NCBI GenBank assembly: GCA_964017145.1
Contig: OZ024840.1
Span: 124,001 to 188,000 of the forward strand
Length of the DNA stretch: 64,000 nucleotides
Source: Agrocybe praecox
Lineage: Eukaryota > Basidiomycota > Agaricomycetes > Agaricales > Agrocybaceae
Direction of reading: 5' to 3'
In this document: positions 4,717 through 39,519 of the stretch, piece by piece
Layout of the letters: each line of letters begins with the position of its first letter
Position numbering within the stretch: the first letter of the stretch is position 1
Notes under the pieces: model-generated
What the model saw: the letters and a program-made list of their open reading frames with translations, nothing else
Databases searched by the model: none
What the model was told of the DNA's origin: nothing
Made by a program: the position numbers and the translations under genes

Positions 4717-7700
4717 GAATTAGTTTTCCCTGGAGATATTGTGCCACCTTCAAGTATTTATTTATATGTACTTGTAATTTGTCCTTCTAATGTGCGGAGG
4801 GTTCTAACTTCTAAATCGTATATGGACTAATAACCCGGGTCCTTGTAAATTTTAAGAACTTGAGATATTTCGAGGGATTGAAACACTCGGGATGCGGATG
4901 CGGAGGGATGCTATTCGAATTATTCCTGTGAGTGCTGGAGGCACTTATGTAGATTTTGTGTGGCAAGTTATGTGCGTCATCTTAAGGAAGGTTATCAATG
5001 GGCGCTAATTTCACGATCAATCATGTACCGTGAATGCTGTTCTTCGGCGTGCCCGGATGCATCGCATATAACTGATATGTACAAACCCCATGGGCTACAG
5101 ACCCGGGAATTTGTTTATACTACTTATATTCCAATATTCCGTCAAGTCGCATGGTTTATAAAATTACAGAATATGCAATCAAGCTGAATGGTGATTAAAA
5201 TATTCACTGCGCAAATTACCGAAACCCCGTCGTGTTGAGGGTCGTGGGAAAAAATCAAACAGGCATCGACTTGGATTCTTTCCATCATGATCGTTTGAAC
5301 GTTTTCGTTACCTCAAGGCCTCACTATTGACATTGACAACCAAACGTCCAATGAACTCGTTTCTCCTTTCCAACCTTATCTCGATGAAAAGTCGCGAACG
5401 GAGGTGTTGGAAGATATCGAAGCACATCGGAGTCGGAGATTTTAGATGCGCTGAAGACTAGAGCGAAATATCCGACGAGGTTTGACAACAAGGTATGTCT
5501 GTTCTTCAGGATAAATTTCTACTTTGTTTAACTTACATACAATAAGGTGAATGAAAAGCTCAGAGCTTTCATTGATAATTCGACACTCCTATGCAGATCT
5601 GTACGTAAGTCTTTGGTTATCAGGGCTTGCATTCTCATTTCAGACACCAAATTGTTCGAAGATATTAAGGCAGAAGTGAAAGCTTAAACGATGAAGCTCA
5701 CCTCCATGGAATATGATGAACGGGTTGGCCGAAATTTTCTGAGATATTCCTATGATCTCTGGCACATTGGAATGGCTGGGGGGTTGAAATAGTAAAGGGC
5801 CGCTGTAAGTCAGTGAATCTCGGATAGACATACTATAATCCCTTCGATGAAGCCACAGTTGCTTTACAATCCTGAAAGACTGTTAATAAATGGTCGAGTA
5901 AAATTGGACATAGAATATTGGATAGATACCTTTGGAAGCCCGTCGTCAGATGGGTTCACTGAGGTGGTCACACACGTTGACAGGACTACTGTGTATTCGT
6001 CGTGAGCAAGGATGGGTTACAGAACAGGTAGAACGGGACTGAAAGGATCCACGTTGTGAGTCTGGGGCGCCAGGCTTACAACCTTGCTGGCAGTGAGGAC
6101 CCTCAAAGCCTTAACCGCCATAGCGCGCCCTCCATGGTACGCGGAGTGCATACGATAAGTGACACCAGGCCCACTGACCAACTCCCCACGCAGGTCCACT
6201 TTATCTCTTTTCACGATCTATTACAAATAATAGATCAAAACCCGCAGCAGATATTCATACAATCAGCTATTGACGAATCATGAGTCCATCCGCGCTACAT
6301 CAACGTCTCGTTGCGAAATATATAGGGTGGATTGAGTTTAACTCGCTGAATACTACTATACGATAGCGTCGACATATCACGAGGCCTCCGTCATGTTCTC
6401 TGCCATCCAAGCTGCCATCACGCACCCTTCTTTTTCCACATATCGTCCGTGTAACATCAACTGAATTCATTATCGATGCATTATCTCAACGTCAGGAATT
6501 TCGAATGAAAATAGGAACCAACCAGCCGTTGGAGTGCCGCGTTGCGGCATTGCATCGTGCTTGGCACCGTCGAGGACGAAGGCTCACTCTGACGCTCTGT
6601 AGGGCCTCTGCTGCCAGATGTGTCAGTATCTATTAAAATTTTTGAAAAGAGATTAGTTGCGCAGCAAGAATGATTCCTCCGCAGCCAAGTCCTCAGATTG
6701 TGATTCAGAGATAGGGAATCTCACTGTGTGAAATTACACGACCGAGACGATGGTTCTCAGGGAGTTGTAATCGTGTTTTAGAGATATTACTTGGGTCATA
6801 ACTAGGAAAAGTGGGCCGTAGTTAGCACGACCGTATACATGGAGTGTGGTTGGATTATTATGATCAACGCAATGGATCAGATATAGTATTATTGCGAGCG
6901 TAGCGAGCAACTCAGTGGTATGAGGGGTCCGGCCGAACACTTCCCTCGAACAAGCAAAGCCAAAGTTTAGATACCAGAATCCTACTGATGCAGCGATGCC
7001 GCTTTTCTGTGAGCGATCCCTCAATGATTTTGACGACAAATGTACCTTTTAGCCTGTAAAACTATCATATAACTACCATGTTCTGTGTATCCGACAAAAA
7101 AATGCGTCCTTCTGCGCTCTTTTGCCTTGTTTTTACAACTTTCGAGACAACACGGCCACTTCGCAGCCTCTTGCCGCGCCATCTTTTTGAAATTGTCAGA
7201 CCAGCAACTCGTCCAGTTTTTGTCCCCCTAGCACACAAGTTCTTTATTATGGTATTATGTATGATATGATATACATTTTGGGCAAAATAAATAAGGCCGT
7301 GCTCGCTCTTCTGCGTCCTCGAATTATAGAGTCAGCCTCTAGCTAGCTGGAGCGGCGAGTCATCACGGCAGTTATAAGGCCTTCAAGCAAGTTCAAGCTT
7401 CGGCTTCTGGTCCCGCTTACCGTCGGCTTCTGGTCCCAGTTAGTGCAAGTATTTCAATGCGATAGATTACGATGCCAGCGCTATCGGATGCACAATGCGC
7501 TCCGGCTAGGATGACGAAGCGAGCCTTCCTCCGCCCTGCGGCGGACCTTTACCTAGTAGCTGAGTTGTAATGAGATTACGTCTGCGGACGAAATTACAAT
7601 CTCCGAAATCAATCTTAATTGGTGATATTTTCGAAGCCTTTTTGCCGATGCCTTCTCGTTCGTGCCATCATCATGAGCCACGACCTATTCACCGTTGTCG

Positions 7701-8076
7701 TAAGGTTGACAAGGTAGCTATTATCGATGTGAACATCTGAGGAACCTGTGAAAAACGGCAGGCAAGCTGAAGCTCGCCCTGCGGGATTTAAGGTAGGGAA
7801 GAGACAACCAGGATTCAGAGAAACTTGTAATAGGGGAAGAATCAATCGGACCGCAGAGCTGTCCCACCAACATCTTCTCTTGCCTTCCCAAGCACGTCAA
7901 CTCGGAGCGCTCGTCCAGACCGCGGACCCTTCCCACAATGTTATCTTAGCACAATCGATCCTTCCCACCACCGTCAATGTTATCTCCCTGTACAGCCGCG
8001 CTAGAGAATGGGCCCGGCGATATAAGTATCTTCTCCTCGTGAGATAAGGCCCTCATTCTGCCGCCATCGTCTAGTC
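4717..8076. other. Gene-poor intergenic region
   Basis: Only short open frames without splice support are seen. A possible decayed coding remnant at 5330-5640 is listed separately. A 14-bp direct repeat (cggcttctggtccc) occurs twice near 7400 and 7426. TATA-like sequence (gatataagtatc) lies about 45-60 nt upstream of the next gene's ATG. Confidence 0.5.
5330..5640 (+). pseudogene. Possible decayed coding fragment, unidentified
   Basis: A peptide-like stretch (…TSNELVSPFQPYLDEKSR…) is followed, after a one-base frame change near 5440, by SEILDALKTRAKYPTRFDNK. A plausible intron (gtatgt…aataag, about 5492-5547) then joins to VNEKLRAFIDNSTLLCR. The composition looks protein-like and the splice signals fit, but the frame is broken and no family is recognised. 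It may be chance. Confidence 0.2.
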
Positions 8077-11000
8077 ATGGTTAATCGCAAGTCCAAGTCC
8101 GGTGGACAATCGCAAGGACCCAAGCAAGCCGCAGGAGGAGGGGCATCTCGATCCCCTAACCCTCAAGCTACCAATAAGCCTCGATCTGTAGCTACAGCCC
8201 ATCGTGATTGTAGTAACTCTTCCATCGTCTTCCATTATGCTAACTTCCTCTCAGCTCAGATGATGGGAAATGCTTCCTCAAAGCCTCCAGCATCATCAGG
8301 TCAATATTTAACCCAAGCTCCCCATTCCTCCAATATAAGAGACTGATTGCGTGTTGTCCGGTACAGCTGCTGCACCTAGACCCCCACAACCACAACCACA
8401 AGTCACCGCACACCGTCCATCAAATGGGACTAAACGTAAGCGCTTAAGCCTCTAGCTTCAAACCTGACAAACACTCATATTCTTTACCTCAGCTGGTAAC
8501 GGGGCTCCCAAATCTCAAGGCGCCAACGGTTCGAACTTTGTCAGAGGTAAGCATCAGGGATTTGGAGCTTGCATACATGAACTTTGTAGACCTACACTGG
8601 TCTACACGGCTCGTATAAGCAAATCCCTAAGTCCTGATGAGCACCTTTGACATCTGCTTATCAGTAGTGTCTCTATCACCAGCGGAAGCAATGTCTGTTC
8701 ACAGGGCATCCCAAGATCGATCTGTAAACCAGGGTACGCGTAAGTTCTTCAGAGCATATCGTTCTTTTCCGGTACTAACGGAATCTTTCGTCAGCTAAAC
8801 GTAATGGAAGCGGGCTGAACAACGGCCCTCAGAAAGTCCAAGGGCACTCACCTCAACGTGAGTCTTATCCTTGTCTTTATCCGCGTGGTCTGAGGTTCCT
8901 GTCTTACAGCCAACATTTCTTCGAAAAACGAGGCACCGAAGCCGAAACATTCTCAGGCCTTCTTTGGAGGTAAGCTTATTATCTTCATCCGTCCTTACGC
9001 CATCCAATTAAACGGCTCTAATAGGTCACTCTTCGGCCTCCAACTCAGCGCTGTAAGTATTAACCTGTTATTCATCTGTAACTGGGGCTGAAGTTATTGG
9101 CACCAGGCCTTCATCACCCCGTCCCGGAAACGTCCAACATTTGCATGTGCCCAAAGGTGATCCCATTATGCTTATTCAGATGTCGTCGTGTAACATAAAA
9201 ATCACCGTAAACTAGCACAAGGAGCAACCATATCCGGGAACAAGGTGTTCCAAGACCCGTCGCCGACGTGTAAGACCCCCTATTGTCCCTCACCTTACCA
9301 GTGATTGAATCAGTGTTGCAGCAAAACAGAGTGGCCATACCCAACCTCATGCTCAAAAAGCACAGAACCATGCTCCGACCCCCCCAAAGCGTGAGCTCTA
9401 GCCAATATTTCAATTTATGGTCGCTCATGTTTATTCCATATAACCTACTTTCTTTTCAGCATCGCCAGCTCATCAACAGCAATCAGGCAAAAGTGAGCCG
9501 TCCTACACCCATCGCCGTTTCATTTTAATTGAAGGAGTGTAGATACTGCCACCTTGAACACTTTCCCGAAGGTCCAGGTGGCAGCAACGCACGCTCAACC
9601 CCCTTCGCGTGGTGGTAAGTTTGTGTCATTTCACCCTGTATGCACACCATCTAAACTCGAAGCGCTAGGTCAACCGTCTGCACCACCATCTCAAAGTTCT
9701 GAGAAGCCGTCGCATAAGTCTCAGCAACAACCCAAGGGTAAGCCTCGGTAGTGTATCTGTCCATATGGATAATCAATTTTTGTCTTGTTGGCAGCGCCCC
9801 CGCACTCGCGCCTCATGCAAGAGACATCCAGTAAAGGCGAGTGTTTCAACCTTGGAACTACAATGTTCACGTTGGCTGATGACCATGGAAGGCCACAATG
9901 ACACCCCTCCAAAGCCCTCGACGAACAAGGGAAAGCCGTCTACGGAAAACAGTGTGCTGTCGACCGTTTTTTCATATTTTCCTACTAGATGTGAGATTTC
10001 CCATTTCATGGTCTATTACTTATTTAACCGACTGTGCATCCCCCAGCGCAAGCTCCGGGGAATCCGTCCCATACGTCTCAGCATGCGCAACAAGGCAGAG
10101 GTAAGCCTCAGTAGCATATCTATCCGTAGAGATAATTGATTTTTGTCTTATTGGCAGCACCTCCGCACTCCCGTCCCGCACAGGAAACGTCCAATAAAGG
10201 CAAGTGTTTCGGTGTTGTAATTGCAATGTTTGAGTCGGCTGATGTAAATGTAAGGCCACAAAAACATCCCGACCAAGACCCCGATGAACGACCGGGGCCA
10301 GGGACAACCGCCTACTGAAAGCATGTTGCCAAAAGCATTGTCATCGATTTTCTCTACTGAATGTGAGCTTGCTCATCTTCATAGTCTGTTACTTATCTAA
10401 TCAGATATGTATCCTCCAGCGAAAGGTTCTGCCAATCCGTCGCCTAAGTCCCAGAATGCGCAGCAACACAAAGGTAAACCTCAGTAGTGTATCTATCCAT
10501 TCAGATACTTGATTTATATCTTACTGGCAGCGCCCCCACACTCGTACCCCGTGCAGGAGATACCCAATAAAGGTAAAATTCCGATGTTATAATTGCGTGT
10601 TCAAGTTGGCTGATGTAAATATAAGGCCACAAGAATATCCCGACCAAGACCCCGATGAACGACCGGGGCCAGGGACAACTTCCTACTGAAAGCATGTTGC
10701 CAAAAGTCTTGTCATCGATTTTCTCTGCTGAATGTGAGCTTGCTCATCTTTATGGTCTGTAACTTATCTAATCAAATATGTATCTTCCAGCGAAAGGTTC
10801 TAGCAATCCGTCGCCTAAGTCCCAGCATGCGCAGAAGCACAAAGGTAAGCCTCAGCAGTGTATCTATCCATACAGATAATTGATTTTTATCTTTCTGACA
10901 GCGCCCCCACACTCGCTCCCCGTGCAGGAGATACTCAATAAAGGCAAAAATTTTGATGTTATAATTGCGTATTCAATTTGGCTGATGCAAATATAAGGCC

Positions 11001-14000
11001 ACAAAGACACCCCTCCAAAGTCCCTGAAGAACAACGAGCGCCAGGGACAGCCGCCTGCTGAAAGCGTGCTGCCAAAAGTATTGTCATCGTTTTTCTCTAC
11101 TGAATGTGAGCTTGCCTATCTTCATGGTCCACTCCTTATCTAATCAAATATGTATCCTCCAGCAAAAGGTTCTGGGAATCCGTCGCATAAGTCCCAGCAT
11201 GCTCAGCAACACAAAGGTAAGCCTCAGTAGTGTATCTATCCATACAGATACTTGATTTTTGTCTTACTGTCAGCGCCACCGCATTCGCCCCTCGTGCAGG
11301 AGATAGCCAATAAAGGCAAGTGTTTCGATGTTGTAATTGCGTGTTCAAGTTGGCTGATGTAAATATAAGGCCACAAGAACACCTTGACCAAGACCCCGAT
11401 GAACGACCGGGGCCAGGGGCAGTTCCCCGCTGAGAGCGTTCTGCAGACACCGAAAGTTTCGCCATCAAATCATTTTGCTGGATGTAAGTTACCCATCTTT
11501 ATGGTTCGTTACTTATTTAACCGAATGTGTGTTCCCCAGCAAACGGTACTGGGAACCGATCGGTTAACTTCGTGATTCCTCCTGGATGTATGTTCTTCCA
11601 CTGTGTCATGACGACATGGCTAAATTTACTTCTCTCAGCGACAAACAACTCTGCAACTGTTGGTAGTGGGTCTCTCCACTCTCAAGCTTCGAAGAAACAA
11701 GGGCCAAATGTTGCTAAAGGTAATGATCGCTGAGGTTATCGACATTACATGTACTCACACTTGGTTCAACTCTAGGCAGCGCGAATGTGCCCCAGGCAGC
11801 AGCGGTCAAACCCCAGACCTGGGGGCAGATGTTTTCATCTTGGTTCCGTCCATCAGCGTCCCCTGTTGAAGTTCAGGCTGCAAATAAATCAACCTCAAGT
11901 TCGATGAAAGGTAATGGCATGCCTTCCTCTTTCGTTTCGCATGTTTAACGCCGTCCATCAGCAGAAGATCGCGGCCCTAAACCGCAGGCTCCGAACTCTA
12001 CCAAAGGTAAAACATCCCCAATCAAGCCACATTAGCATCGACTGAAATGACTTTATTATTGTAAGCCAAAGCCAATGATGGCCGGTCGAAATCTCACCCT
12101 GCACTGGACTTGTCCTTTATTCCACGTGAACACTTGAGGAAGGAGCCCATCTTATCAACGAAAGGCGCGAAGAATGGATTACAGGACCTGCCAAAACGAT
12201 CAAACAACTCGGACACATGTAAGATCTTATTGCGATCGCTTTTGCTCGTTATTTTTTATAGCTTATTCCCATACTTTTTCCAGCATCCTCGGCGACTTCG
12301 CCGAAGAACGACCAGGCGCCTACTCATCATAATATGCCAGCGCGAAGTGATGGCGGCCCACAATATCCCTCAAATGTGTCGAAAAAGCCTGAAACGGCCA
12401 CAAATTTGAAATGTAATTAAGCCCTGTGCTCTTTACCCATCGCATGGACTAACTTAAATACCTAGCCGCATTGAGTCATGCCGCGGATCGCTCTCAAATA
12501 TCTAGCAGGCCTCAGGCAGCTGCTGTGCACAATCTAAAGAAATTCACAGTTCGATCGAGCTCTAGCAAAGGTATACCTTCAACGTCACCGTGATCCTATC
12601 AACGACTGACATTTTCTATCCTGGCGCAAGTATTATCCCAGCATGATCCTAAAAAGAAAGCTGCTGTTCGCAAAATCTTACTACGTCAACGTACCCCCAC
12701 CCTGAGGTGGCAAGATTCCGATACTCCTAGGACCGTCTCAGCATACTCCACCTTAACCGCTGCGCCACTCCCATCGCCTCCCAGGAACGAGCTCGAGAAC
12801 AAAGCTGCTCGTAAAACAATTTCCAAGCATCGTGATCTCTTCAAGATCGTCACACCGATCAAGGCCGACGTCTTCAAAAAGTATGTCAAGGACCACCCCA
12901 ACCAACCATTCGTCCAATCTGTTGCCCGTGGGCTCAAGAAAGGATTTTGGCCATGGGCGGACACCAGTGATCCAAAATTTCCTACTACGTATGACGGTTC
13001 GCGTCAGGGTTCTCGCATTACCAGCGAGGATAAAGCCAAGTTTATTCGACAGCAGAGCGAAGAAGAAATGGAGCTCGGGCGCTGGTCGAAATCTTTTGGC
13101 GATAAATTGCTGCCTGGGATGCATTCCGCCCCAATCAATGTTGTTGCGAAAAGCACTCCGGGAAAGTATAGGCTCATTGTCGACCAGAGCAGGGGGCCGC
13201 ACGCTCTAAACTCGACGATTGCAAAGTCTCAAGTCAAGGTCAAGCTCGACAGTATACACGATCTCGGCGATGAACTCCTAACCGCTCGGAAGAAACATCC
13301 TTACGAGAAAATTTGCTTGTTCAAATCAGATGTCAAAAGCGCGTACCGACAGTTGCCAATGCATCCATCGTGGCAGATTAAACAGGCCATCCCCATCGAC
13401 GGTCAGTACCACATAGACCGGTGCAACACATTTGGCAATCGAGGCGGTGGATGGAACTGGGACTCCGTCATTTCCTCCGTCAATTGGATTGCCGCCGAGA
13501 AAAAAGGTGTATCCGGTCTCCTGGGATACGTCGACGATATCTTTGGCTGGGATTTCGAGCGAAACAAAAAGTTCTACAAGCCGTACAAGAAATATCTCCC
13601 TACCAAGCAAGCCCGACTCCTTGAACTTTGGGACGAGCTTGGTATTCCTCATGACGAAGAAAAACAACTCTCCGGCCCTTCCCTTCCTATCCTAGGCTAT
13701 CACGTCGATGCGAATGCAATGACAGTCAAAGTCCCTGACGAGAAGAAGGCAAAGGTAGTTGGATTACTTCGAAGTAACGCTCATGCAGGGAAACCTTACA
13801 CCCTCAACGAGCTGCAGTCCGTTGCCGGGTCTGTTGGCGGCGCCCTTAGTCTTTATCCACGCCTCCGTCCGGGTCTCCGCGTGCTCTTTGATGAGATGGC
13901 AGCGCAGGAGGGGGGTACTACCAAGCTTAAGGTATCACAGCCTGTTGCTCGCTGCTTGTCGTCGTTGGCCGACTTCCTTGAGGATGCCCCGCCTGTGCCA

Positions 14001-14051
14001 ATTGAATACCAGAAGGGAAAAGTGCGCAGTATTGGGGCTAAGACGAAATAA
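8077..14051 (+). CDS. 36-exon gene: low-complexity repeat protein with C-terminal reverse transcriptase domain
   Basis: Exons: 8077-8187, 8260-8299, 8367-8435, 8493-8546, 8665-8733, 8795-8857, 8910-8969, 9025-9052, 9107-9156, 9216-9269, 9322-9390, 9460-9492, 9543-9614, 9669-9737, 9795-9836, 9892-9990, 10047-10100, 10158-10199, 10255-10362, 10420-10473, 10531-10572, 10626-10733, 10791-10844, 10902-10943, 10998-11105, 11163-11216, 11274-11315, 11370-11483, 11540-11587, 11639-11719, 11776-11910, 11965-12006, 12066-12218, 12284-12412, 12466-12570, 12631-14051. They join to about 1,305 aa without a stop, nearly all in phase 1. Residues 1-832 are Ser/Pro/Gln/Lys-rich and disordered, with five ~68-aa repeats at about 281-617. 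The last exon carries an RT domain: a lead-in with GFWPWAD (about 937), YRLIVDQSRGPHALNS, FKSDVKSAYRQLP (catalytic Asp about 1066) and GYVDDIFGW (about 1132-1135). RNase H and recombinase domains are absent. The RT resembles Agaricomycete DIRS-like retroelement RTs. The second acceptor (exon 2) and the exon 5 donor are the least certain splice sites. A host-owned or domesticated RT gene is inferred. Confidence 0.8.
9738..11539 (+). repeat. Tandem array of a ~370-bp exon-A/B/C cassette (five copies)
   Basis: The B exons begin at 9892, 10255, 10626, 10998 and 11370, giving periods of 363, 371, 372 and 372 bp. Each unit holds exon A (42 nt), exon B (99-114 nt) and exon C (48-54 nt), each bounded by phase-1 introns. 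Each unit therefore adds about 68 residues without shifting the frame. The central three copies are very similar in introns as well as exons, while the first copy is the most diverged and the last has a changed C exon. This is a coding tandem repeat, not a CRISPR array. Confidence 0.9.
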
Positions 14052-14439
14052 ATAGTATGTTGATCGACGTCATCTCAGCTATGTGGGTTAATTTTGAAGT
14101 CACAGGGCAAAGACAACGGCGAGAATGGGCGCTTTTTTTAAATTCATGTATAACAGAACGAACCGGGGACTGTACAACCCACATTACAATTTCTAGGACT
14201 ACTTAGTACAACGATTAAACAAAAATAAGTGAAATGAAAAGAATTTGGCCTGCCTTCGCATCTTGCCAGCCTGCGTAAGTGAGTTGCATGGTAATTTAGA
14301 CGGAATTTCTTTCTTGCACGATTTTATCGTATTCAAGACTTCCCAATCTGTAATGAGGCGTTGCGTCAAAATCTGTTGTTGTTTTTTCGCGCTCAAATTT
14401 GGCTCTCGAAGTTTTGTTATCACTGCCTTTGGTATCATT
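14052..14439. other. Intergenic region after the RT gene
   Basis: No RNase H, recombinase or long terminal repeat is seen after the RT stop codon. The sequence is AT-rich with no supported exon. Confidence 0.5.
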
Positions 14440-14725
14440 TTGATCCTACTCTATATACGTCCCATGTTTGCCACCTTGTATTCTTCACAGTCATTTCCAT
14501 TCAATCACCCCATATACACACTTCCTTACTCTTGTCCAGGCTCGTACTTTTTTCATGGCTCGTACTCTCTTCATGGACGAAAATAGACCCTTGTTGTCAC
14601 TGAGGGAACATTCAACAGCGGTCATATTCACACCGGCGGAAAGAGTGAGCAAGGGTATCCAGTAATTTCTGCAGCTTCTAAGTGCATATTTCAACGTCAT
14701 GTAGATGGATATGATAGACTATGAG
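14440..14725 (+). pseudogene. Truncated 5' fragment of a NACHT gene
   Basis: The fragment matches the promoter, first exon and first intron of NACHT gene A, but on the opposite strand. It runs from a cttgtattcttcacag-like leader through an ATG at 14573 to the ATGGATATGATAGACT start of exon 2. Homology then stops. About 25-28 bp are missing inside the first exon relative to gene A, removing the GSIFAGSQ part and shifting the frame. It is a relic of an inverted duplication and is not expressible as a NACHT protein. Confidence 0.7.
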
Positions 14726-17191: not shown

Positions 17192-20100
17192 TCAAAGGTG
17201 AGTGCGTAACTTTTGTATCCATGAAGTAACCCCCGTCCGGTTGAATCTTCTCTTTTTTTCCTTTTGCGAAGTTGGCTCTGCTGACATATGTTGGTTATGC
17301 ATACATTATCAATGATAATTCATTTAAATTCATACCTGTGATTCTCTCGTCTGCCTGGTTCAGCTGCGGGATAGATTCTGTTCTCTCTTGTTCCGGTGTT
17401 CCTTCCAACGAATGTAAGTCAAAATACGCCGACCAATGTATTTTGCGCGTACTTGTGATTATTTCCAATTCCTGGGGCGTTTGCTGGGTACGTTCCTCAG
17501 ATTCTGTTCTCTCCTTTTCTGCTGTTATTTTTGATAAGTGTTAGTCGAAATATCACGCATGATTCATTTCACTCGTACCTTCTATCATCGCAACTCCCTG
17601 CTTTCTTTCTGTGCTTTCTGCCTGGCGCTCTGCTCCCGTCTTTCGTTCTGACGAATCTTTGGAAGAAGGTAAGTATGCATCTTATCACAGCTGGGACGTT
17701 CGAACGTCCACACCTGATATCATCGCGACTTCTGTATTTAACCCCGTTATAGTACTACCTCCTTCACTTTCCTCTCGCCCTGGTGTTTCTGTCGATGAAT
17801 ATTAGTCATAAAATCACAAATAATCAGATATGTCGAAACTCAAACCTGCTATCATATCAGCCTCCGCTCCCATTCTCTTCAAGTATTTGTCTATTGCTCG
17901 GCGCGCTCTCCGGCTGACCGCTGGGAACATCATAGACATGGGTGCGAAGGCTTTCTTGCAAAATTCGACGACGTCTGGATCTCGTCCAGCCATTGGGAGA
18001 ATCTCAGGGAGATATTTCAGATAAGCTATATAGCGATACCAGTATCCGCTCCGAGTAGCATTTTGCACAGGCCGATCCCAGTCAAATGATACCAGGGAGA
18101 AGATCGAGAGGAAGGCTAAATGCGTCTTGATTGGAAAGTACTTCAATTTTTTGAGATTTTCGTAGGTCGTGAAATTCGGTCGGCGTCCTTTTCCTTGAAG
18201 AAAGTAAATTAAAACGAGTCTCTCTTCGTTTTTGTGGATATTGTAGAATGAGGTACGCATATGCCATTTCCACGGACGACTAGTTCTCGTCTCTCTGTCC
18301 ATGCGTTCGAGCTTCAGATGCCTCTTCGATTCAACCGTCGTAGTACGGCCTACGTCACAGAGATATTTGAGACAGTATAGCGCTGCTCTGGAGACTATAT
18401 GCGATTGTTCATAATTGGAGAGAATCTTGTGAAAACCATCCCGCAGTAGTGGCCGAATAGTGTGATTGTCTTTAATATTGGACCTCCGACACAGGGCTAT
18501 CCACAGGAAATCCACTTGTCTTTCATTCCAAAGGTTGCTGATTCTGGTATTCGCCTCGATACATTCTGCGACAAACACGAAATTCTTTTTAAAGTTGTTA
18601 ACCCCGTCTTTGGTGCCAATATACCATCGTATGCACTTGTAAAAAATCCGCAGATATTGATCAAAAACATCTTCGAGTTCGTAATATCGTTTTTTCTAGT
18701 ATTCTTTAGGAGTAAGTGTCTTGTCGATTTAGTGACAAGACAAAAACCCACGAGATTTGCAAGTAGAACGATTAATCCCTCAAGAAAAAGGTATTCGGGG
18801 CAATAAATGCAGTGGCTGGAGAAAAGATCTTGGCAAAAAGATTCCATTGGGAACTGTGCGAAGGAATTAAGGAACACCGCTTGGATGGCTGGACTACAGT
18901 CAGGAATCGCCTGGATGAGCTCATCAGAAAAATTGTTTATTGGATGCGGAGATTCATTTGCGTAACGAATGCTCCCCTTGAATTGACACCCTCGGCCTTG
19001 ACCTATATAGAAAGAATGGAAAAATCAGTGATAGTAAAAGACGAGTCAAATAATGACGTACCTGAGAATATCTGAAGTGAACGAATAAAATGGGATGCCC
19101 TCGCGTTTGCCATGCTCATATTATAGAGCTTCTGTCGAGACGGATCAAAAAGAAAGTCTGCCAAGGACTTGTGGAGGATGGACACGCGACAAAAGGGTTC
19201 CTCGTCATGCTGTCGCATGGACACAATAATACCTGCGAGATCGGAAAGTATCGTTTCTGCCTCCCCTTCCGGTAAATCAAGATACGCATCGAGCACAGGA
19301 GTAGAAATCGAGGAGTATAGAGCGACATAACCCAGCAACTTGACAGTAAGGCATGCGTCTTCTGTCTGATTGATTATGTGCAAATACAGTGCATCTAGTC
19401 GTGCAAACGGGAGATCTTTTTGTGGTGGTCGAAGGCCGAGGGCTATCTCGAGTCGTTCATGAGGTTTGTGACGGGGGGACTTCACGAAATTAACTAGAGT
19501 CGAAGCATAGATAAATTGGCCCGACGCCGTGCCTATGAGTTGTTTGATTTTATTTTCACCAGGCCACCGTTCAGGTATCGAAGACTTGCGAACATGGCCC
19601 TCGCGGATCGCCTTGAAATTATCGTGCAAATATTTTTCAATATCCTCATCAGACCTGTAGTCGTCGTCCAGGTGTATAGTGAAGACGGCTGGAGCGAGCT
19701 GTACTCCCTGAATGATATTTTGGATATTGCTTTCCGGACGGCTGCAGACGAGGAATCGAATGGGGCACGGGGAGTAGGATTCTGTGAGATGCCTGATGGT
19801 CTCCAAAACATCGCGCTGGCTTGAATGGTCAACGCACTCGTCAAGACCATCTATAACTATGAGCCAGGGGACATTTTGGGTGTTGGTAGCATGGAATAAC
19901 GGGTCCATCACAAGCGATATGAACTGCGTTTGCAGGGACTTGGTGAAAATAAGGGGGTCTTGAGCGATGTAGTTGGATACCTCAGTACGTGAAGTGCGAC
20001 GCATACAGCAAAGCTGGTAGGCGATTGTCGGAACAAGGGAATTGGAATGATTTCTTGTGCTATCACTAAAACTGAAAAAGAAACTGGCGAGAAGCGTTCC

Positions 20101-20495
20101 TTCACGCGCACATTGCTCGCAAACACTTCTCCCGATGGCGGATTTTCCAACGCCCGCGGCTCCAGTGAGCCAGCTAATGCTCTTTTCACGAGTATCTTTG
20201 TGCACTCCTGCAAGCCAGTCCATGATTGCCTCTATGACCGCCACACGTGTTCCTGGATGGCATTTCGGTGGGTCGAAGTCGTGACCCGAATTATGAAGGG
20301 CGTTGGACGCGACAACCTCCACAAGTCTATCATATCCATCTAAAGTTGAACCATGCACTTAGAAGCTGCAGAAAAGACTGGAAAACCTTGCTCGCCCTTT
20401 CCGCCGGTGTGAACATGACTGCTGTTGAATGTCCCCCCAGTGACAACAACTTGCGATCCCGCGAAAATTGATCCTGAGGGTCGATTTTCATCCAT
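17192..20495 (-). CDS. NACHT-domain STAND ATPase, gene A (intact)
   Basis: The model has nine exons, listed 5' to 3': 20495-20387, 20339-19062, 19002-18752, 18695-17846, 17788-17714, 17656-17579, 17521-17453, 17401-17336 and 17280-17192. They join in frame to about 954 aa. Exon 1 (109 nt, phase 1) encodes a short Gly-rich leader with GSQVVVTGGTFNS. Exon 2 carries NALHNSG…FDPPKCHPGTR, the P-loop GAAGVGKSAIG (about 95-105), Walker B LIVIDGLDE, a VCSRPESN arginine motif, and an ILHKSLADFLFD region near its end. Exons 3-4 encode a helical C-terminal half without recognised repeats. Exons 5-9 encode a Glu/Gln/Ser/Thr-rich tail of related mini-exons, ending in a basic KEKKRRFNRTG segment. NACHT STAND proteins are nucleotide-driven oligomerising switches used in fungal non-self recognition. 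The ligand-sensing repeats usual at the C-terminus (WD40, ankyrin, TPR) are not seen. Confidence 0.88.
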
Positions 20496-20699
20496 GGAAA
20501 GAGTACGAGCCTAGACAAGAGCAACGAAGAGTGTATAGGGGGGTATGGAATGGAACTGACTGTGAAGAATACAAGGTGGGAGACATGTCCCCAAATAACC
20601 CTAATCACGATATACTCTGATCATCATGCCAAAAATGTATATTTAGTTGCATAGCCCAGATCATTTTGTTGACCAAACATAAAGCTTAAAGCGAGGCGA
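20496..20699 (-). promoter_or_regulatory. Upstream region of NACHT A, conserved among the paralogues
   Basis: The block with ggttatgcaactaaata-like sequence and the following pyrimidine-rich leader can be recognised upstream of NACHT C (about 39,520-39,720) and D (about 62,380-62,531). This suggests shared promoter and 5' UTR sequence. No specific factor site can be named. Confidence 0.35.
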
Positions 20700-25276: not shown

Positions 25277-28200
25277 TCAGCGCGCCGGTGGTACTGTGAT
25301 GTATCGCGTAAAATCCACCTGAGTACTTGGAGATGACTGCATGTAGGGCGCGAGGATTTGCGCGTGTTTTGTTAGGTATAGTTGAAAGGCATCGCTGGCC
25401 CAGCGTCCTTTTGCCTTCATAACTTCAAATGGCACCCCCCTAAGCAGATATTCCAGTGTGGCGCCGATACGGATCCCATGACCCTGTAGGGGTTCTAGAC
25501 CTGCTGCTCGAGCTGCCGCCGCTACTGTTTTTAAGAATTTTGACTTCGTCAGAGGGCGGTGGCCATCCTTGAACTTGTATGCAAATAGGTGCTCTGTGTC
25601 GGCGGGGTTATTCAGCTGCCTGAATGGGTTATTTGTTAGCGTTTGGCATCAGCCTTGAACGGATAAGCGGGTACCTGTGATGAGCGAGAGCAGCATCGGG
25701 ATCTGTTTCCCCCTCTTGCCGTGCCCAGTGCACGTCCTCTCCAGCCGTGCTCGTCTTCGTACGAGGGAGGCGAAGGACGGTCATCTGGTTTCCCTGCCTG
25801 TCCACCGATGTGCTCAAGCCTGACGTTGTGACGTGCTTTTCTGGGTCAAATGCATCAAGCCGAGGGACTGTGAACTCGCCCAGACGAGCTGCTGCGTAGA
25901 AGCAGGTGGTGAGGCATGCATACACTGCTGCGTCAAGAGGTGCGGCCATGTCAAGCTGCCCTTTTACTGCCAGAATGAAATCCGGGGTGTATGGGCGCCG
26001 TTTTTTCCTCTTGGAGGTGGGTGGTGCCAGTTTTTCTGCGGCATTCAGCATTGTTTTGATTTCACTTTCATTTATATTCCAGCTTATACCGTAGAGGGTG
26101 TGCCATGCTCGCAAGGCATGCACATAGTTATGCAGTGTTTTGTTAGAGTATGCGCCCGCCATGCTTGCCAGAAAGGCCGCCACCAGGACTGGACTAGCAG
26201 GGGTGCGCTGCCACTCGGGAATGCTTTTCGAATCACAGTAGCAGTGAAAGGCAAGCAAACCTGATCCGTACGTCACTAATGTTGACTCTGTCCAGGCATG
26301 TCCCATGACTGACTCAATCTTCTCTAGGTCTTCCATTGACAGATTTATTACTTGCCCTTCGGCGTCTTTCGACTGACGTGAGTGATATGGTTTCCATCGA
26401 TAAAGCCGCTCTCTTGCTAGGCAGTGTGGGCGACATGTGGATTCGATTGGAGTACGATGAGTGGGATATGGGGCTGGACGCGCCGGTCGTGCATTGTCCG
26501 ACGGGGATTTGTCTTGAGAGGAGCTAGAATTCTGTCTGGGCAAGGTATGCAAATTCGTTTTCTTCCTCTTGTCGTTGATTGAGCCGCTGACGCTCTTCGT
26601 CTGAGTAAGGGTTTCCTTGCTTTTGTGTTGGGAAGGATATCGGGCTGTGTGCAGTGTCCAGTTGATTCTCTGCATCGTGTTCGATAATGAAGGGGCGAAG
26701 TTCGACTGGGATGGATATTTTGGGGAGAAGGAGGGCTGCGGGTGGGTAGATGCCCCTTGAGGGGCCGTCCGCTGGGTTGAATCTGCTTGCAATGTATCTG
26801 GTGTGTATAGTAAACTGCGATTTTTTTGTGTACGCAAATATTCTTCGAAATACTTCATTTGTAGGTTTGTTTCGGCTGCGTCCTTTCCACCATCCCTCGA
26901 CAACTCCCATGTTGTCACCGAAGACTTTGAGATGCTTTTGTCAGATGGGCAGATGTGCTCGCATAAGGTCCTTGTAAGGAGTTCGAAACCGACACTTTCC
27001 GCCCATCCAATGTTGCGTCCTTCGGCCTTCCATCCTGGTAATAATTTCCATGCCTGCCATTTGTTACCGATAATGATACCGATGCCGACACCGGAGCTGG
27101 CATCTGAGAAGGCTTGGAAATCATTGATTTCGACTGGTCCAGGGATGTTGCGGAAGATGTGTGGTTGTTGCAAGGTCTTTTTCCACCATTCAAGGTCTTC
27201 TGAAGTGCCGCGAGGTGGGGTGCGTGGTACGAAAGGACGATTATGGAAGATGCTGAGCATGGTCTCCAGAGATGTGAGGTAGGTCCGACCTTCTCTGATG
27301 ATGTGACACGAGTGTAGTAATTTTCCATAAAGACTTTGTAGTTGGTTAAGTGTGTGCGTGTGACGGCTTTGCCATTCAGTAATGCTTGTGAGGTACTTTT
27401 CTTTTTTCGAGTCAGGAAGCGCCACAATTTTAGTATCAAGATCCCAATTAAAACCGAGATATGGTACCACCGATGTGAAAGGAACTGTTTTCGTTGGTTC
27501 CCATGGAATACCCAATATTTTGGAAACATGATCGATGTCAGCATCTGTGTAGCAGAGGTTACTATTAGGCGTCGTTGATAGGTCACGTAAAACCGTGCTA
27601 TTATCTTCGTCAAATTCTGAGGGGCATCCACCTTCCATTTCCCCCCCGCAGAACCATATTCTACTTCCATCTTGTCGACGACCTCCGTTTTCCATAATAT
27701 GTCGGTGCCATTCGCGACGTTTAGCATTATATTCAGATAAGTAAGAGCGTGGGACTGCAAAGAAAATGTGGTCATCAACCCACTTCGATAACGGGCCAAT
27801 ACCAAACGCACGGAATATGTCTGCACCTGCATCTGCAAGCCGACCATATAGCCCACCTGCTGAGGATAGGCCGAAGTTGTTGCAGGTGTTGACAGCAAAT
27901 CTGTTGTCACCTTGAAGGCGAATAACCAAACCCACCCATTGTTCCGGTTTGATTGGTATAGTTCGATATGCTTCTGCCACATCCCGGACCGAAGCTTTTG
28001 ACCCCGGAGGTAAATGAAAAATAATAAAGGCGACTGTGTTAAATGTCCCCCAGGTGCACGGGAACTCATCACTGTTGATTTGAGAATTAATGGATGATGT
28101 GTGCAGGAGTGGTGTATGAGGCGAAGAGAAATTATGTACAGGTCGAAACTTGCCAGGTTTCCCTGGCTTGGGTATGATTGATAATGGGGAAGTTTGAAAG

Positions 28201-28658
28201 GGTCCGATGAGGGATTCGAGTTCGGCTTGAGTAAAAGGTCCGATGTACCTTCCAGTCTGAAATTCTTTGATTTCGATGTCCTGATATGCCTCTGAGAATT
28301 GTTCGAGGGATACATTATTAGGTGGTGTATATGTATTAATAGGTGGTATAATACCAGCGTCGAAGCCAAATTCGATGTCGTGGCATAATGTTGGGTAACG
28401 AGAGGTAAGGTTATATTGTTCGAGTGCATCTCTCCATGCCTTAGAGATATACGGAGTGAGGGCCTTACGCCTTCTGTGCTCGAGGGCAGTCCTGGGCTCC
28501 ATGATCGATTTGTTCGCATCCGGAGCAAATGTGTCGTGCACGATGATCTGTGCTGGCACATCCCATAGGTCGTTGCCAATCCGAGCATAACTGCGATCCC
28601 GAAGACAAGGAGATAAGTCGGCCATTTTCGCTGCGTCGTACTTTGGTCTGACCTCCAT
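25277..28658 (-). CDS. RT / RNase H / tyrosine recombinase region of the DIRS element (frameshifted)
   Basis: One frame runs from ATG 28658 to 25675. A 55-nt intron (25674-25620) joins it to the last exon 25619-25277, giving about 1,108 codons. RT motifs: KPGKFRPVHNFSSPH, SVRDVAEAYRTIPI (catalytic Asp), CNNFGLSSAGG and KWVDDHIFF. RNase H starts with FQAFSDASSGVG and WAESVGFELL, but its second half (VFGDNMGVVEGWWKGRSRNK…FNPADGPSRG, 26910-26524) lies in a different frame after about 26,950. The recombinase part returns to the first frame: TYGSGLLAFHCYCD, YAAARLGEFTVPR, and, after the intron, GHGIRIGATLEYLLRG (His-x-x-Arg) with the catalytic Tyr region GRWASDAFQLYL. The long single frame therefore reads about 150 residues out of register in the middle. 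This copy probably cannot make full RNase H. Confidence 0.82.
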
Positions 28659-29865
28659 CGAATGTTTTGGAGCTGTTGCACACTCTGATGTTGTGTGGAT
28701 TTCGCCCGAGACATACGGCGCAAACTGATGGGCTTCCCGCTGTTGCGCCGTTGCGAAAATGCGATGTGGACGAATCCTCGTTCTTCATCTTGGGCAACCC
28801 AGTTGTTTTCGTAGGATATGGAGCGTACTGTCTACTAGCCCTCCTGGGTGTTGGTGATGCTGAGCGTGAACGCCCTCTGTAGTACGACGTACTTGGGGTA
28901 TGACGTCTACTGGTGGATCTCCCACTTCGGTTTTGAGAGTTTCCTTCTCGATACGGGAAATCCCTCTGAGCTCGGGTTGGTGTTGACACAGTAAAATTTT
29001 GCAGCTCAGTCATGACTTCCGCTCTCCTTTGGTCATGAAATTTGTCCGCCACTCCTCTCAAAGTTGCTGGATTGATGTTCGCTATGTTGAAGCCTTTGTT
29101 CTGATCCAGGGAATCGTGCCACAACCTGCGCATTTTCGCCTGGAATATGATCAGAATTTTGTCGCCATGTGGGCTTAGGCGCATTTCGTGGTCTTCTAAC
29201 TGGAAGTAAAACTGAGCGAGTGCATGTATGTGCTTCTCGGGCCATTCTAGCTGGCTCATGTAGTGGATCATCGAGCTTTTCCCCATGCTCATCTGTCTCC
29301 AGGTGAGGTCACAGTCCTTGATAATATTCTTCGATGCTTTAAAAGCCGCCAGTGGTTTCAGAGCCACCACTCCGTTTATTTCGGAAAATCCAAATGCGTC
29401 GTTCGAGGTGGATCGGTCGCCGCCGTGATCTTCAAGCGCTGCCTCGCATCCCTCGGGGGTAAAGTAGTATAGTTCCACCCATTCGAAATTCTTCAGTTTA
29501 TTGAGCGCGTATGCTGATGGTCGAGGCATGATCACGTTTTCGCATGAAAGATTTTCGTCGAAGTCATTTATTTTGGCCTTCTTTTTTTCTTGAGGGGGCT
29601 CATTTCGTGCTGCTTCCTCGCGTTGTCTCTCCTCTTCGTGACGTCTTGCTTGCTCTTGTTGTTGTTCCTGCTCAACCTGTAGGTTCCAGGCGTCAATTCG
29701 AGCTTGCCGTCCTTGCTGGTATGCCGCTTCTAGTTGGTTAATGGCCTGTTCGGCTGAAGTCTCCGGTCGTGCTTGAGTTATAACCGCTATGACATTCTCG
29801 TAAGTGGGGTCGTGAAAATTAGGAACCGGTTCAAGGTTCGGGTTTTGCAGCTGAGCATCTGGCAT
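28465..29865 (-). CDS. Gag-like protein of the DIRS element
   Basis: This is a 466-residue open frame beginning ATG CCA GAT. The N-terminal third contains a Gln/Glu/Arg-rich coiled-coil-like region (VEQEQQQEQARRHEEERQRE). The middle is a helical capsid-like region (RLWHDSLDQNKGFNIANINP). An Arg/Ser-rich basic stretch follows. The C-terminus holds two Cys/His clusters: CAVCLGRNPHNIRVC, and CSDWQRPMGC followed by H…RHICSGC…HGAQDC. The Cys/His clusters suggest RNA binding during packaging of the element transcript. Its 3' end overlaps the start of the pol frame by about 190 nt in another frame. Confidence 0.8.
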   Translation of the reverse strand: MPDAQLQNPNLEPVPNFHDPTYENVIAVITQARPETSAEQAINQLEAAYQQGRQARIDAWNLQVEQEQQQEQARRHEEERQREEAARNEPPQEKKKAKINDFDENLSCENVIMPRPSAYALNKLKNFEWVELYYFTPEGCEAALEDHGGDRSTSNDAFGFSEINGVVALKPLAAFKASKNIIKDCDLTWRQMSMGKSSMIHYMSQLEWPEKHIHALAQFYFQLEDHEMRLSPHGDKILIIFQAKMRRLWHDSLDQNKGFNIANINPATLRGVADKFHDQRRAEVMTELQNFTVSTPTRAQRDFPYREGNSQNRSGRSTSRRHTPSTSYYRGRSRSASPTPRRASRQYAPYPTKTTGLPKMKNEDSSTSHFRNGATAGSPSVCAVCLGRNPHNIRVCNSSKTFDGGQTKVRRSENGRLISLSSGSQLCSDWQRPMGCASTDHRARHICSGCEQIDHGAQDCPRAQKA

Positions 29866-31519
29866 TCTTCGTGAGTGATAGTTTAGGGACTAGGATATTA
29901 GACTATGATTTATGATATGTTTGTAGCAATGAAAAACAAAGCACGAGTTGACGTCGCTCGTCGCGCTGGAGAGTTTCGCTTTCTGTCCTTGCGAGCGAGG
30001 TGGCAGAGCGAAGGAAAGAAGTGCACGTGATGCACTTCCGTCTGCTCAAAGACGATATTCTAGCTCTTCGCTTGTACCTCGCTTCGCTATAGAAACGAAC
30101 ACATCCCCATCGTGTAAGCCAAGGTACGCCTCTAGCACAGGAGTGGAAATCCGGGAGTTTAAAGCGACATAGCCCAACATCTTGACGGTCAGAGATGTGT
30201 CCTCTGTCTGATTAAGTATGCGCATATAAAGCGCATCCAGTTGGGCAAACGGAAGATCTTTTTTCGGTGGTTGCAGGCCGAGGACTATCTTAAGTCGTGC
30301 ATCAGGTCTATGGCGCGGAGATTTCACGAAATTAATTACAGTCGAAACATAGATAAATTGGCCCGACGCCGTATCTATGAGTTGTTCGATGTTACCTTCA
30401 CCAGGCCACCGTTCAGGTATTGAGTGCTTGTTAACATGGCCCTCGCGGATCTCGTTGAAATTATCGCACAGATATTTTCTGATATCGTTATCAGATTGGT
30501 AATTGTTGCCCAGGGATACTGTGAAGACCATTGGACTCATTTGAACTCCGTGAATGAAATTTTTGATGTTGTTTTCCGGACGACTACAGACAAGGAATCG
30601 GACGGGGCATGGAGAGTAGGATTTTATGAGATCTCTGATGGTATCCAAAATATCGCGCTGGCTGGATTGATCTATGCACTCGTCCAGTCCATCTATAACT
30701 ATGAGACGGCGGACGCGTCGGGCGTCCGTAGCATAGAACAACATTAACGGGTCCATCACAAGGGATACGAACTGCGTTCGCAGGGACTTGGTGAAAATAA
30801 GGGGATCGTAGGCGATATAGTTGGACACCGCGGTACGTATAGTAGGGTGAATACCACAAATCTGATAGGCGATTGTCGATACAAGACACTTAGAATGATT
30901 CCTTGTGCCATCGCTCGAGCCGAAAAAGAAACCGGCAAGCAAAGTTTCTTCCTGCGCACAGCGCTCGCAGATGCTCCTCCCGATGGCGGATTTCCCAGCA
31001 CCCGCAGCTCCAGTAAGCCAGTTGACAGCCTTTTCACTGGTATCTTCGTCTGCTCCTGCAAGCCAGTCTACGATTGCCTGTATGACCGCCATACGGGTTC
31101 CCGGATGGCATCTCGGTGGGTCGAAGATGTGACCCGAATTATGAAGGGCGTTGGGCGTCACAACCTCCAGAAGTATATCATATCCATCTGGAGGACTGAG
31201 ATGTTTAATTTACAATAAGAAAAAAATACTGTGACGTACCCTTTGCTCCACCATGAAAATGGGAGTTTTGAATGCTGGTGAACGTACCACCAGTGATGAT
31301 GGCTTGGGATGCTGGGAAGAAAGATCCCAAACGCTGATTTCCGCTCATGAAATGTCCCCAAAATCGTTAAAATCTGTATCAGAGCGAGAAAGATAGAAGA
31401 TGGAGAAGATGGCAGAGAAGAAACCTAAGTGGGAAACATGTGCGAACGTATATGTATTCTTCGTGACACGGAAAACAAAGTACACATAATCGGGATGGTA
31501 ATAGGATATACGATCCTAC

Positions 31520-36717: not shown

Positions 36718-39519
36718 TCAGTCATCTCTCTTCCTCTTTTTGCTGGTTTCTTAGTTTGAAAAGATGTTGGTTACATTTTCACAAATATAATACTGAAGTC
36801 CATACCTGCTTTCCCAGCGTCTCTGTTTGCTCTTGAGTCTGGACTATCGTCTTCGGATTCCATTCTCTCCAAATATTCGTTTATTGCTTGGCGCGCCCTC
36901 CGGCTAAGAGTTGGGAACATTATAGACATGAGTGGGAAAGGCTTGTCGCAAAATTCAATGAGTTCCGGATCTCGCCCTGCCATTGGGAGAATTTTTGGGA
37001 GATATTCCAGATAAGCCATATAATCCCTATAGTATCCGACTCGAATACGGTTGGTCACTAATTGAACCAAGGCAAATGACGCCAAGGAAAAAATCGACAC
37101 CCAGCTTGAACTTTGCAATGTCAATAAGAGAAACCTCATTTTGTGGCGTTTTTCAGGGGTAGAAAAATAAATCTGTCGTCCTCGCACTGTATGATATATG
37201 AAAACAAGTCTTTCTTGATTTTTGTGGATATTGTGGAATGAGGTACGCATATGCCATTTCCAGGAACGACGAGTTCTCGTCTGCCTCTCGATGCATTCGA
37301 GCTTCAGATGTCTCTTCGCTTCAAGCGTCGTAGTACGGTGTATATCACAGAGACGTTTGAGACAGTATAGCGCTGCTCGAGCGACTATACGCGATCGTTT
37401 AGGAATGGTGAGAATTTTATGGAAACCATCGCGCAGTAGCGGCCGAGTCCTGTTATAGCCAATATTGTCCAGGGTATTGAAGGTTTCTCTCTGGGCCTTT
37501 TGCAGCAAATCCAATGTGCTTTCAAAGTACCGCAGGTCCTCGAATTTGATGCTCGCCTTGATATAACGCTTGACGAACACGAAATTTCTTTCAAGGTTGT
37601 TAACCCCGTCTTTGGTACAAAGATACCATAGTGTGCACTGGAAAAGGACCTCCAGATATTGTTCAAAAACGTCTTCGAGCTCGCGATGCTGTTTCCTCTG
37701 ATATTCTTCCAAAGTAAGTGTCGTGCCAATCTGGTAATAAGTCAAAGACTCACAAGTTTTGAAAGCGCATATATTAGTCCTTCAGCAAATTGGTACTTGG
37801 AGCAATCATCACTGTGGCTAGCAAAAAGATCTTTGCAAAAAGATTCCATCGGGAATTGTGCGAAGGCATCGAGGAACGCGGCTTGGATGGCTGGACTACA
37901 GTCAGGAATTGCCCGGATGAGTTCATAACCACTATCATTTAGTGAATCATTTATTGGATGTGGAAAATCATATAAATAATGAGTGTTCTTCTTGAATTGA
38001 CAACCTCGAACTTGACCTATATATAGAAAGAGTGGAAAGATCAGTGACGTTTAGATGTGTCGAATGATGACTCACCTGAGAATATTTCAACTGAACGAAG
38101 AAAATGTGATGCTCTCGTGTCTGCCAAGCTCATATAATAGAGCGTTTGTGATCGAGACGGATCAAAAAGAAAGTCTGCAAAGGATTTGTGGAGGATGTAC
38201 ACGCGACGAAATGTTTCCTTTTCATCCTGTTCCATGGAGACAGTACCTGCGAGATCGGAGAGTATCGCTTCTGCGTCCCCATCATCTAATGCAAGGTACC
38301 CTTCCAGCACAGGAATAGAGATCGAGGAATTCAAAGCAACATAGCCCAACATCTTGATTGCCAAGAATGTATCCGCTGTGAGATTGAGCATGCGCATATA
38401 AAGCATATCTAGTTGGGCAAATGGCAGATCTTTTTGCGGTGGTCGAAGGCCGAGGATTATCTCGAGTCGTTGATGAGGCCTATGACGAGGAGACTTTACA
38501 AAATTGATTACAGTCGACGCATAGATAAACTGGCCTGATGCCTTGTCGATGAGTTGTTTGACGCTGTCTTCACTTGGCCAGGATCCAGGGATTGAATAGC
38601 TGTGAATATGGCCATCGCGGATTTCTTTGAAATTATCGCGCAGATACTTTCTGATATCGTCATTAGATTGGTAATTGTTGCCGAGAGATATTGTGACTAC
38701 CATTAGATTCATTTGAACGCCGTGAATGAAATTCTTTATATTGCTTTCTGGACGACTGCAAACAAGGAAGCGGACGGGGCATGGAGAGTAGGATTTTATG
38801 AGATCCATAATGGTTTCCAAAATATCGCGCTGGCTGGATTGATCTACGCACTCGTCCAATCCATCTATAACTATAAGGCGGCGGACACTCCGAGCTTCTT
38901 GATAGTAGAACACCATTAGCGGGTCCATGATAAGCGATACGAACTGCGTTCGCAAGGTCTTGGTGAAAATAAGGGGATCGTAAGCGATATAGTTGGACAC
39001 CGCGGTACGTATAGCGGGATGGATACCGCAAAGCTGGTAGGCAATTGTCGAAACAAGAGAATTGGAATGATTTCTTGTGCCGTCACTAGAACTGAAAAAG
39101 AAACCGGCGAGCAAAGTTCCTTGTTGCTCACAGAGCTCGCAAACACTTCTTCCGATCGCGGATTTCCCAGCACCCGCGCCTCCAGTAAGCCAGTTGACAC
39201 CCTTTTCACGGGTATCTTCATTTGCTCCTGCAAGCCAGTCCATGATTGCCTGTATGACCGCCACACGTGTTCCCGGATGGCATTTTGGTGGGTCGAAGAT
39301 GTGACCCGAATTGTGAAGGGCGTTGGGCGCCACGACCTCCAGAAGTCTATCATATCCATCTGGAAGACTGAGATGTTTAATTTACAATAAAACAAAATAC
39401 TGTGACGTACCCTTTGCTCCACCATGAAAATGGGAGTTTTGAATGCTAGTGAACGTACCACCAGTGATAATGGCTTGAGATGCTGGGAAGAAAGATCCCA
39501 AACGCTGATTTCCGTTCAT
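36718..39519 (-). CDS. NACHT-domain STAND ATPase, gene C (intact, short tail)
   Basis: The model has five exons, listed 5' to 3': 39519-39411, 39359-38076, 38016-37754, 37697-36806 and 36749-36718. They join to about 859 aa. The leader has GSFFPASQAIITGGTFTS. The P-loop GGAGAGKSAIG (about 95-105), Walker B LIVIDGLDE (about 198-206), VCSRPESN motif and ILHKSFADFLFD are all present. The C-terminal half matches genes A and B, with EDDSPDSRANRD at its end. The last exon adds only ETSKKRKRDD, a basic nuclear-localisation-like tail, in place of the long mini-exon tail of gene A. The frame is uninterrupted. It is flanked upstream by F-box pseudogene ii and downstream by segment X. Confidence 0.88.

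Follow-up and report, generated by a model that had tools for sequence, protein, structure and literature searches.

A low-copy, intron-rich gene of Agrocybe praecox ending in a reverse transcriptase: a candidate exapted cellular enzyme

Introduction

When a reverse transcriptase (RT) forms the last exon of an intron-dense gene, does it belong to the host, to an element that moves with its introns, or to a separate unit lying next door? To our knowledge, few cellular RT genes of eukaryotes are known besides telomerase and rvt, and we know of no host RT from the tyrosine-recombinase class of retroelements. The question is raised by a locus of the mushroom Agrocybe praecox at 8077-14051 of the window, i.e., the whole stretch of 64,000 nucleotides that was analysed (G000:C1:124001-188000; positions given without a contig are those of the window). 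For this locus, an earlier note had proposed a single gene carrying a captured or domesticated RT. Searches of the same genome covered 59.2 Mb in 347 contigs.

Results

A 36-exon gene with the reverse transcriptase as its last exon

Guided by homologues, we obtained a chain of 36 exons on the plus strand at 8077-14051, in which one frame stays open for 1,309 codons up to the TAA stop codon at 14049-14051. Its introns, 31 of them GT-AG and four GC-AG, measure 50-69 nt apart from one of 136 nt, and 34/35 lie in phase 1. The 36 exons, four GC-AG junctions, roughly 1,305 codons and almost uniform phase 1 claimed earlier were thereby reproduced to within a few codons. Exons 1-35 (8077-12570, plus; 28-153 nt each) encode a basic, low-complexity N-terminus of 836 residues. 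They are followed by a last intron of 60 nt in phase 1 (12571-12630, plus), which adjoins the RT and is absent from the database proteins P0001, P0005, P0019, P0029 and P0121, and by exon 36 (12631-14051, plus), which encodes an RT of 473 residues plus stop codon without RNase H. Upstream of the start codon, a TATA-like box seen by eye at 8021-8026 (plus) is kept in a second copy of the gene on contig C8.

With the RT exon barred from splicing, an unrestricted exon search gave 37 exons (score 424.4; 1,294 aa) and an all-phase-1 search 35 exons (score 411.0; 1,325 aa). The free search thus came out marginally ahead, and it is the homologues, not the score, that fix the exact chain; exons 4, 8/9 and 16 were adjusted by eye to P0121 and P0122. 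In 20 mononucleotide shuffles of 8080-12630, the all-phase-1 search found no chain in 16 cases and scores of 77.7-101.7 in the other four, vs. 411.0 for the native sequence. A 39-exon chain from a first, composition-scored search was rejected because of false introns inside the RT exon.

The last junction is crossed by several database proteins without introns. P0121, an intronless protein of 1,084 aa from 4 contigs that measure up to 5,280 bases, spans all of residues 640-1325 of a 1,325-aa query at 86% identity; by eye, it extends from exon 5 to the stop codon, and its first residues resemble intron 4 read through. The junction is likewise crossed without intron in P0001, P0019 and P0029, and in P0005 exons 28-29-30 run directly into exon 35 and then the RT exon, exons 31-34 being missing (by eye). 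The intronless contigs are probably RNA-derived, judging from their lack of introns; the database source code "lgn" presumably denotes Logan assemblies of public reads. The form of P0005 missing exons 31-34 is, by eye, suggestive of in-frame alternative splicing. In two gene models of Cyclocybe aegerita, P0122 and P0123, the parts follow one another as in the window gene, with the RT cut short. Residues 1-140 of P0123 start in a P-loop-like protein absent near both copies here; the model then runs into the upstream DNA of the unit read as protein. Such a start could reflect another genomic setting or a gene-model fusion.

Since the layout is kept in the C8 copy and these exons are linked to the RT in the intronless proteins as well, N-terminus and RT form one gene with the RT as end exon, as the earlier note had held. 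Transcripts stopping before the last exon were not seen: intronless P0001, P0005, P0019, P0029 and P0121 all continue into the RT. That the RT exon is a single open frame of 1.4 kb would also suit two unrelated units, i.e., an intron-rich gene stopping short of an intronless RT element, but such an arrangement would demand chimeras in all five of these proteins and leaves aside that both parts were duplicated together as one unit, so that we regard it as very improbable.

A basic N-terminus with a variable cassette array

The N-terminus (836 residues; pI 10.7) is rich in Ser (15.0%), Pro (12.8%), Ala (9.1%), Lys (8.9%) and Gln (8.4%), and a Pfam scan of the N-termini of P0121 and P0122 gave no match up to an E-value of 0.1. 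From this composition, it is predicted to bind nucleic acid or to scaffold a condensate. It includes a tandem array at 9724-11418 (plus; period 372, 4.6 copies), whose cassette comprises three exons and three phase-1 introns and encodes 68 residues. As the cassette is 68 codons long and its introns are in phase 1, gain or loss of cassettes keeps the frame open; the 372-bp cassette appears five times in the window protein and, counted by eye, once in the C8 copy, three times in P0121 and twice in P0122. Among close copies, N-terminus (83.0-91.3% identity) and RT (85.3-91.6%) are nearly equally conserved. The more distant P0029 matches the N-terminus weakly (31% over 87 columns, E 2e-4 with the low-complexity filter off) and has the RSSSSK end of the N-terminus in common with the window gene.

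An intact active site and no RNase H

In the RT exon, the catalytic Asp of motif A lies at 13329-13331 (plus; Asp in 90/91 aligned rows, Asn in one) and the YVDD of motif C at 13527-13538 (plus; every residue in 90/91 rows, one row being gapped). The window gene shares an RT domain with catalytic aspartates with Ngaro/DIRS elements; the RNase H that follows the RT in these elements is absent, and the unit stops ~200 bases past the stop codon. The protein ends 24-47 residues after alignment column 440. Most of the family's database rows (85/89) end 21-47 residues beyond this column and the remaining 4/89 fall short of it, whereas 45 of 49 RNase H-type rows (a set that includes P0096, itself an RT-family fragment) have 119 or more residues after it, aligned as RNase H. 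A scan of the RT exon for Phage_integrase gave no match up to an E-value of 1, and the Pfam scan of P0121 and P0122 revealed no recombinase (Phage_integrase) up to an E-value of 0.1 and no endonuclease. The RT exon itself reaches a Pfam score of 15.2 bits vs. a cut-off of 29.6, and domain-based surveys may miss such RT genes, as their score lies this far below the cut-offs.

Along its whole length, the RT aligns with retrotransposon RTs; of the chains compared with it, retroviral and Ty3 RTs have the most similar fold. In a quick tree without bootstrap, for which the RNase H group was chosen as root and which was built without rows filled under 60% (P0096 and one RT-family row), 90 rows lacking RNase H are separated by a single branch (SH-aLRT 100) from 48 relatives, nearly all of which have it. 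The RT family has one apparent origin.

This family comprises P0001-P0087, the fragment P0096 and P0121-P0123, and was divided by eye from the RNase H type where, in the best 120 of 860 matches, identity and length fall off from P0087 to P0088; P0123, with its RT cut short, was excluded from the counts. Since P0096 ranks below the divide, the 87 members are a lower bound. The closest outside relatives among the matches listed are agaricomycete proteins with RT and RNase H (43-51% identity), and 2/5 of the RNase H-type relatives scanned match a tyrosine recombinase (Phage_integrase) weakly, below the cut-off. Separate, intronless multi-copy elements were not seen among the closest relatives. 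No further family member was found in the best 120 of 338 matches of a profile search, which gave ten new proteins (P0140-P0149; 46-51% identical to P0058) that stand outside all counts. Named carriers among the matches listed are only Cyclocybe aegerita and Tricholoma matsutake, about 1/4 of the database proteins carrying a name; the spread of the family may be patchy, and patchiness would argue against an essential host gene. A scan of viral contigs for relatives yielded 26 pattern matches, none of them confirmed.

Two full copies in the genome

The second full RT copy lies at C8:2136307-2137749 and encodes a protein 87% identical to that of the window. The unit common to both loci, introns included, covers 7879-14255 of the window (plus), its 5' end being at 7878/7879 and its 3' end, uncertain by ~20 bases, at 14233 by BLAST and at about 14255 by eye. 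On C8, the frame is open through the matching all-phase-1 chain of 23 exons and 1,044 aa. Compared on the all-phase-1 chains, the introns of the two copies are 94.0% identical (1,137/1,210 bases), the N-terminal exons 93.8% (1,594/1,699) and the RT exon 93.0% (1,322/1,421).

A protein search of the genome with the RT led to ten places, two of them the full copies; the others are fragments on C2 (43%, 125 residues) and C9 (37%, 122 residues), five matches of 24-27% identity and a single one of 39% (96 residues). A match on C12 adjoins an overlapping frame that resembles a recombinase by eye. When the two ends and two internal segments of the unit were used as DNA queries, only the two loci, the cassettes among themselves and a repeat downstream were matched. 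In these own-genome searches, which skip very common words and limit the number of candidates, neither an intronless copy nor a remnant of the unit was matched, and three stretches of the N-terminus used as queries led to no copy of it lacking the RT. The unit thus has the low copy number without matched relics expected of an exapted host RT gene.

Unrelated flanks and movement with introns

Homology between the two copies stops abruptly at both sides, and their flanks are unrelated. The C8 copy interrupts a member of a repeat family, which resumes at the very base where the unit ends; at 13 further places (8 on C8, 5 on C9; 75-81% identical), the repeat starts within 3 bases of that point. 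Between the left half of the interrupted member and the unit lie 1.6 kb of other DNA, possibly from a separate event, which together with the unit make up an interruption of ~6.5 kb. By comparison with repeat member L039, ~220 target bases are missing at this site, and no target-site duplication was seen at the interruption. In a search for empty sites, the window flanks gave dispersed short repeats only, and it was from the C8 flanks that the repeat family was identified. At the ends of the unit, no pair of inverted repeats of 14 nt or more was found, and a direct comparison of the terminal 260 bases by 9-mers left a single short match per copy, different in each and resembling a chance match; terminal repeats like those of Ngaro/DIRS elements were not seen in the unit.

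Since introns are kept in both copies, copying from spliced mRNA does not fit; the unit moved with its introns, as expected if its DNA was duplicated ectopically or carried by another element. It could accordingly be an intron-bearing mobile element that moves as DNA or unspliced RNA, perhaps via other elements, and that is served by its RT. The abrupt ends, the unrelated flanks and the resumption of the C8 repeat at the end base of the unit all agree with this, as does the start of P0123 in sequence absent near the copies here, unless a gene-model fusion explains the latter. Against it stand the restriction to two copies with neither remnant nor intronless copy matched, the lack of visible common terminal repeats and of a visible target-site duplication, the missing RNase H and the absence of a recombinase match in P0121 and P0122. 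On balance, we consider a mobile unit unlikely, yet it keeps weight because the ends are abrupt and the positions differ.

Several repeats surround these sites. The family that holds the C8 copy (L038-L043; C8:2.01-2.48 Mb and C9:1.87-2.01 Mb) is clustered on two contigs, with the C8 copy in one member. Immediately upstream of the unit, 7379-7651 contains short dispersed repeats with ~40 genome matches of up to 98% identity. Downstream of it, a repeat of ~240 bases occurs at 14452-14697 and again at 20345-20587 (minus), being 77-79% identical to C1:144345-144587 (within the window) and C1:253786-254043.

Weak constraint since the duplication

The dN/dS of the RT exon, proposed earlier as a check, was determined between window and C8 copy: dS is 0.101, dN 0.065 and omega 0.645, with a bootstrap interval of 0.40-1.01. 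By blocks of 80 codons, omega ranges from 0.23 to 2.97 and exceeds 1 in 2/6 blocks. For the N-terminus, omega is 0.59 (0.38-0.88) on the provisional all-phase-1 chain, which was also used for the identities and indel counts and differs in exons 4, 8/9 and 15/16 by tens of codons. In the RT exon, we observed 0 indels vs. 7 in the introns (P 0.004), 0 stop codons vs. 3.7 expected (P 0.02) and 60 residue changes vs. 69.3 expected (P 0.017). All eight gaps in N-terminal exons are multiples of three in length, vs. 4/7 in introns, but this is weak evidence, since the chain search forces exon lengths to be equal modulo 3. With omega near 0.6 and deficits of indels, stops and replacements in the RT, constraint is present but weak.

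This weakness, with an interval for the RT that reaches 1, would also be in line with a once-exapted or once-mobile RT gene decaying here, the window copy being a relaxed duplicate without a job. The terminal branch of the window copy is longer than that of the C8 copy (0.091 vs. 0.038), and it departs four times from residues that ≥95% of the other rows have in common, compared with once for C8; one of the four is a Pro to Ala change near the finger Lys. Decay nevertheless appears quite improbable to us, and more so than a mobile unit: both frames are intact, the RT has no indel, the catalytic residues are kept, and the window copy is not exceptional, as 20/66 rows have four or more departures.

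Other features of the window

On the minus strand, 25629-29889 is occupied by large frames that overlap and resemble those of a tyrosine-recombinase retrotransposon, with RT and recombinase-like residues at 25629-28784 and a Gag-like frame at 28465-29889; a Pfam scan of the region gave a weak Phage_int_SAM_1 match only (E 0.13). Three similar minus-strand frames at 19003-20358, 30046-31209 and 38041-39381 have a P-loop stretch, e.g., WLTGAAGAGKSAIGRS, and look like a repeated cluster of NACHT NTPase genes (both by eye). Also by eye, the frame sets at 41273-43225 (minus) and 56480-59998 (plus) have stretches in common, e.g., KLSWTNYDYDATDFEA, and look like a gene duplicated in opposite orientation, the copy at 41273-43225 being split over several frames.

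Discussion

The architecture of the gene, its splicing (indirectly, via the intronless proteins), the retention of the active site, the lack of RNase H and the duplication as intron-bearing DNA are well supported. The best reading of the locus is a host-type gene, present in few copies, whose product is an exapted cellular RT, with a probability of roughly 0.58; it is favoured because the RT has one apparent origin, has lost RNase H while keeping its active site, and sits in an intron-rich, low-copy gene for which no relics were matched. The unrelated flanks, the position of the C8 copy in a repeat, the weak selection and the few named carriers count against a settled host gene. Of the capture or domestication proposed earlier, the part based on architecture, absent RNase H and low copy number stands, whereas the cellular function is a putative one.

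Under exaptation, an intron-rich gene of an agaric ancestor would have acquired a retrotransposon RT as its terminal exon, downstream of a phase-1 intron; the donor would probably have been a tyrosine-recombinase (Ngaro-like) element. The receiving host gene would have encoded a basic low-complexity protein, and RNase H and recombinase would since have gone. The putative activity of the enzyme is the copying of RNA into DNA; without RNase H, its product would stay hybrid or depend on a host RNase H, and without an integrase, the protein would not itself insert this product. Going further, the family could represent a new cellular RT of mushrooms, derived once, predicted to be catalytically intact and making cDNA for the host, e.g., in a putative genome defence, with a basic, rapidly changing N-terminal scaffold and cassettes expanding like a minisatellite; this fuller picture is a tentative one, to which we give slightly less than even odds.

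If so, a new RT family would be at hand in which the active site is kept down to about 55-60% identity without an RNase H or recombinase match, and its predictions are testable in cultivable mushrooms. Judged by title and start of abstract, no publication on this RT family was found in a search that mostly lay outside subscription journals. A survey of transposable-element fusions in 1,237 fungal genomes required, according to the part of its text available, Pfam matches of at least 50 bits (PMC10799480), and the window RT falls below this threshold with its 15.2 bits.

How does this gene relate to known systems? It resembles the tyrosine-recombinase retrotransposons of Agaricomycotina (Ngaro/DIRS) in that its closest outside relatives are proteins with RT and RNase H, of which 2/5 have a Phage_integrase match below the cut-off. 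It differs from them in that the window unit has neither RNase H nor, in its RT exon, a recombinase match, has ~35 introns, exists in two full copies and has no visible terminal repeats. Ngaro elements are described, in the section of the source available, as forming four groups, three of them in Agaricomycotina (PMC3783388).

As a putative cellular RT without RNase H, the window RT can be set beside telomerase, which is of that type as well. Unlike telomerase RT, it aligns with retrotransposon proteins that have RT and RNase H, and its fold is retroviral/Ty3-like. Some Penelope-like elements have RT genes whose genomic copies retain introns, as do the copies described here, but the kin of the window RT are RNase H-bearing retrotransposon RTs, and P0121 and P0122 have no endonuclease match.

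The rvt genes, finally, are domesticated RT genes of fungi and other organisms, characterized in the available part of their description by an obscure origin and by a large loop, 2a, that separates RT motifs 2 and 3 (PMC5718144). Going by that partial description alone, the window RT differs from them in aligning throughout with retrotransposon RTs. What both have in common, as far as that account extends, is the idea of a host RT gene without mobility domains (PMC5718144).
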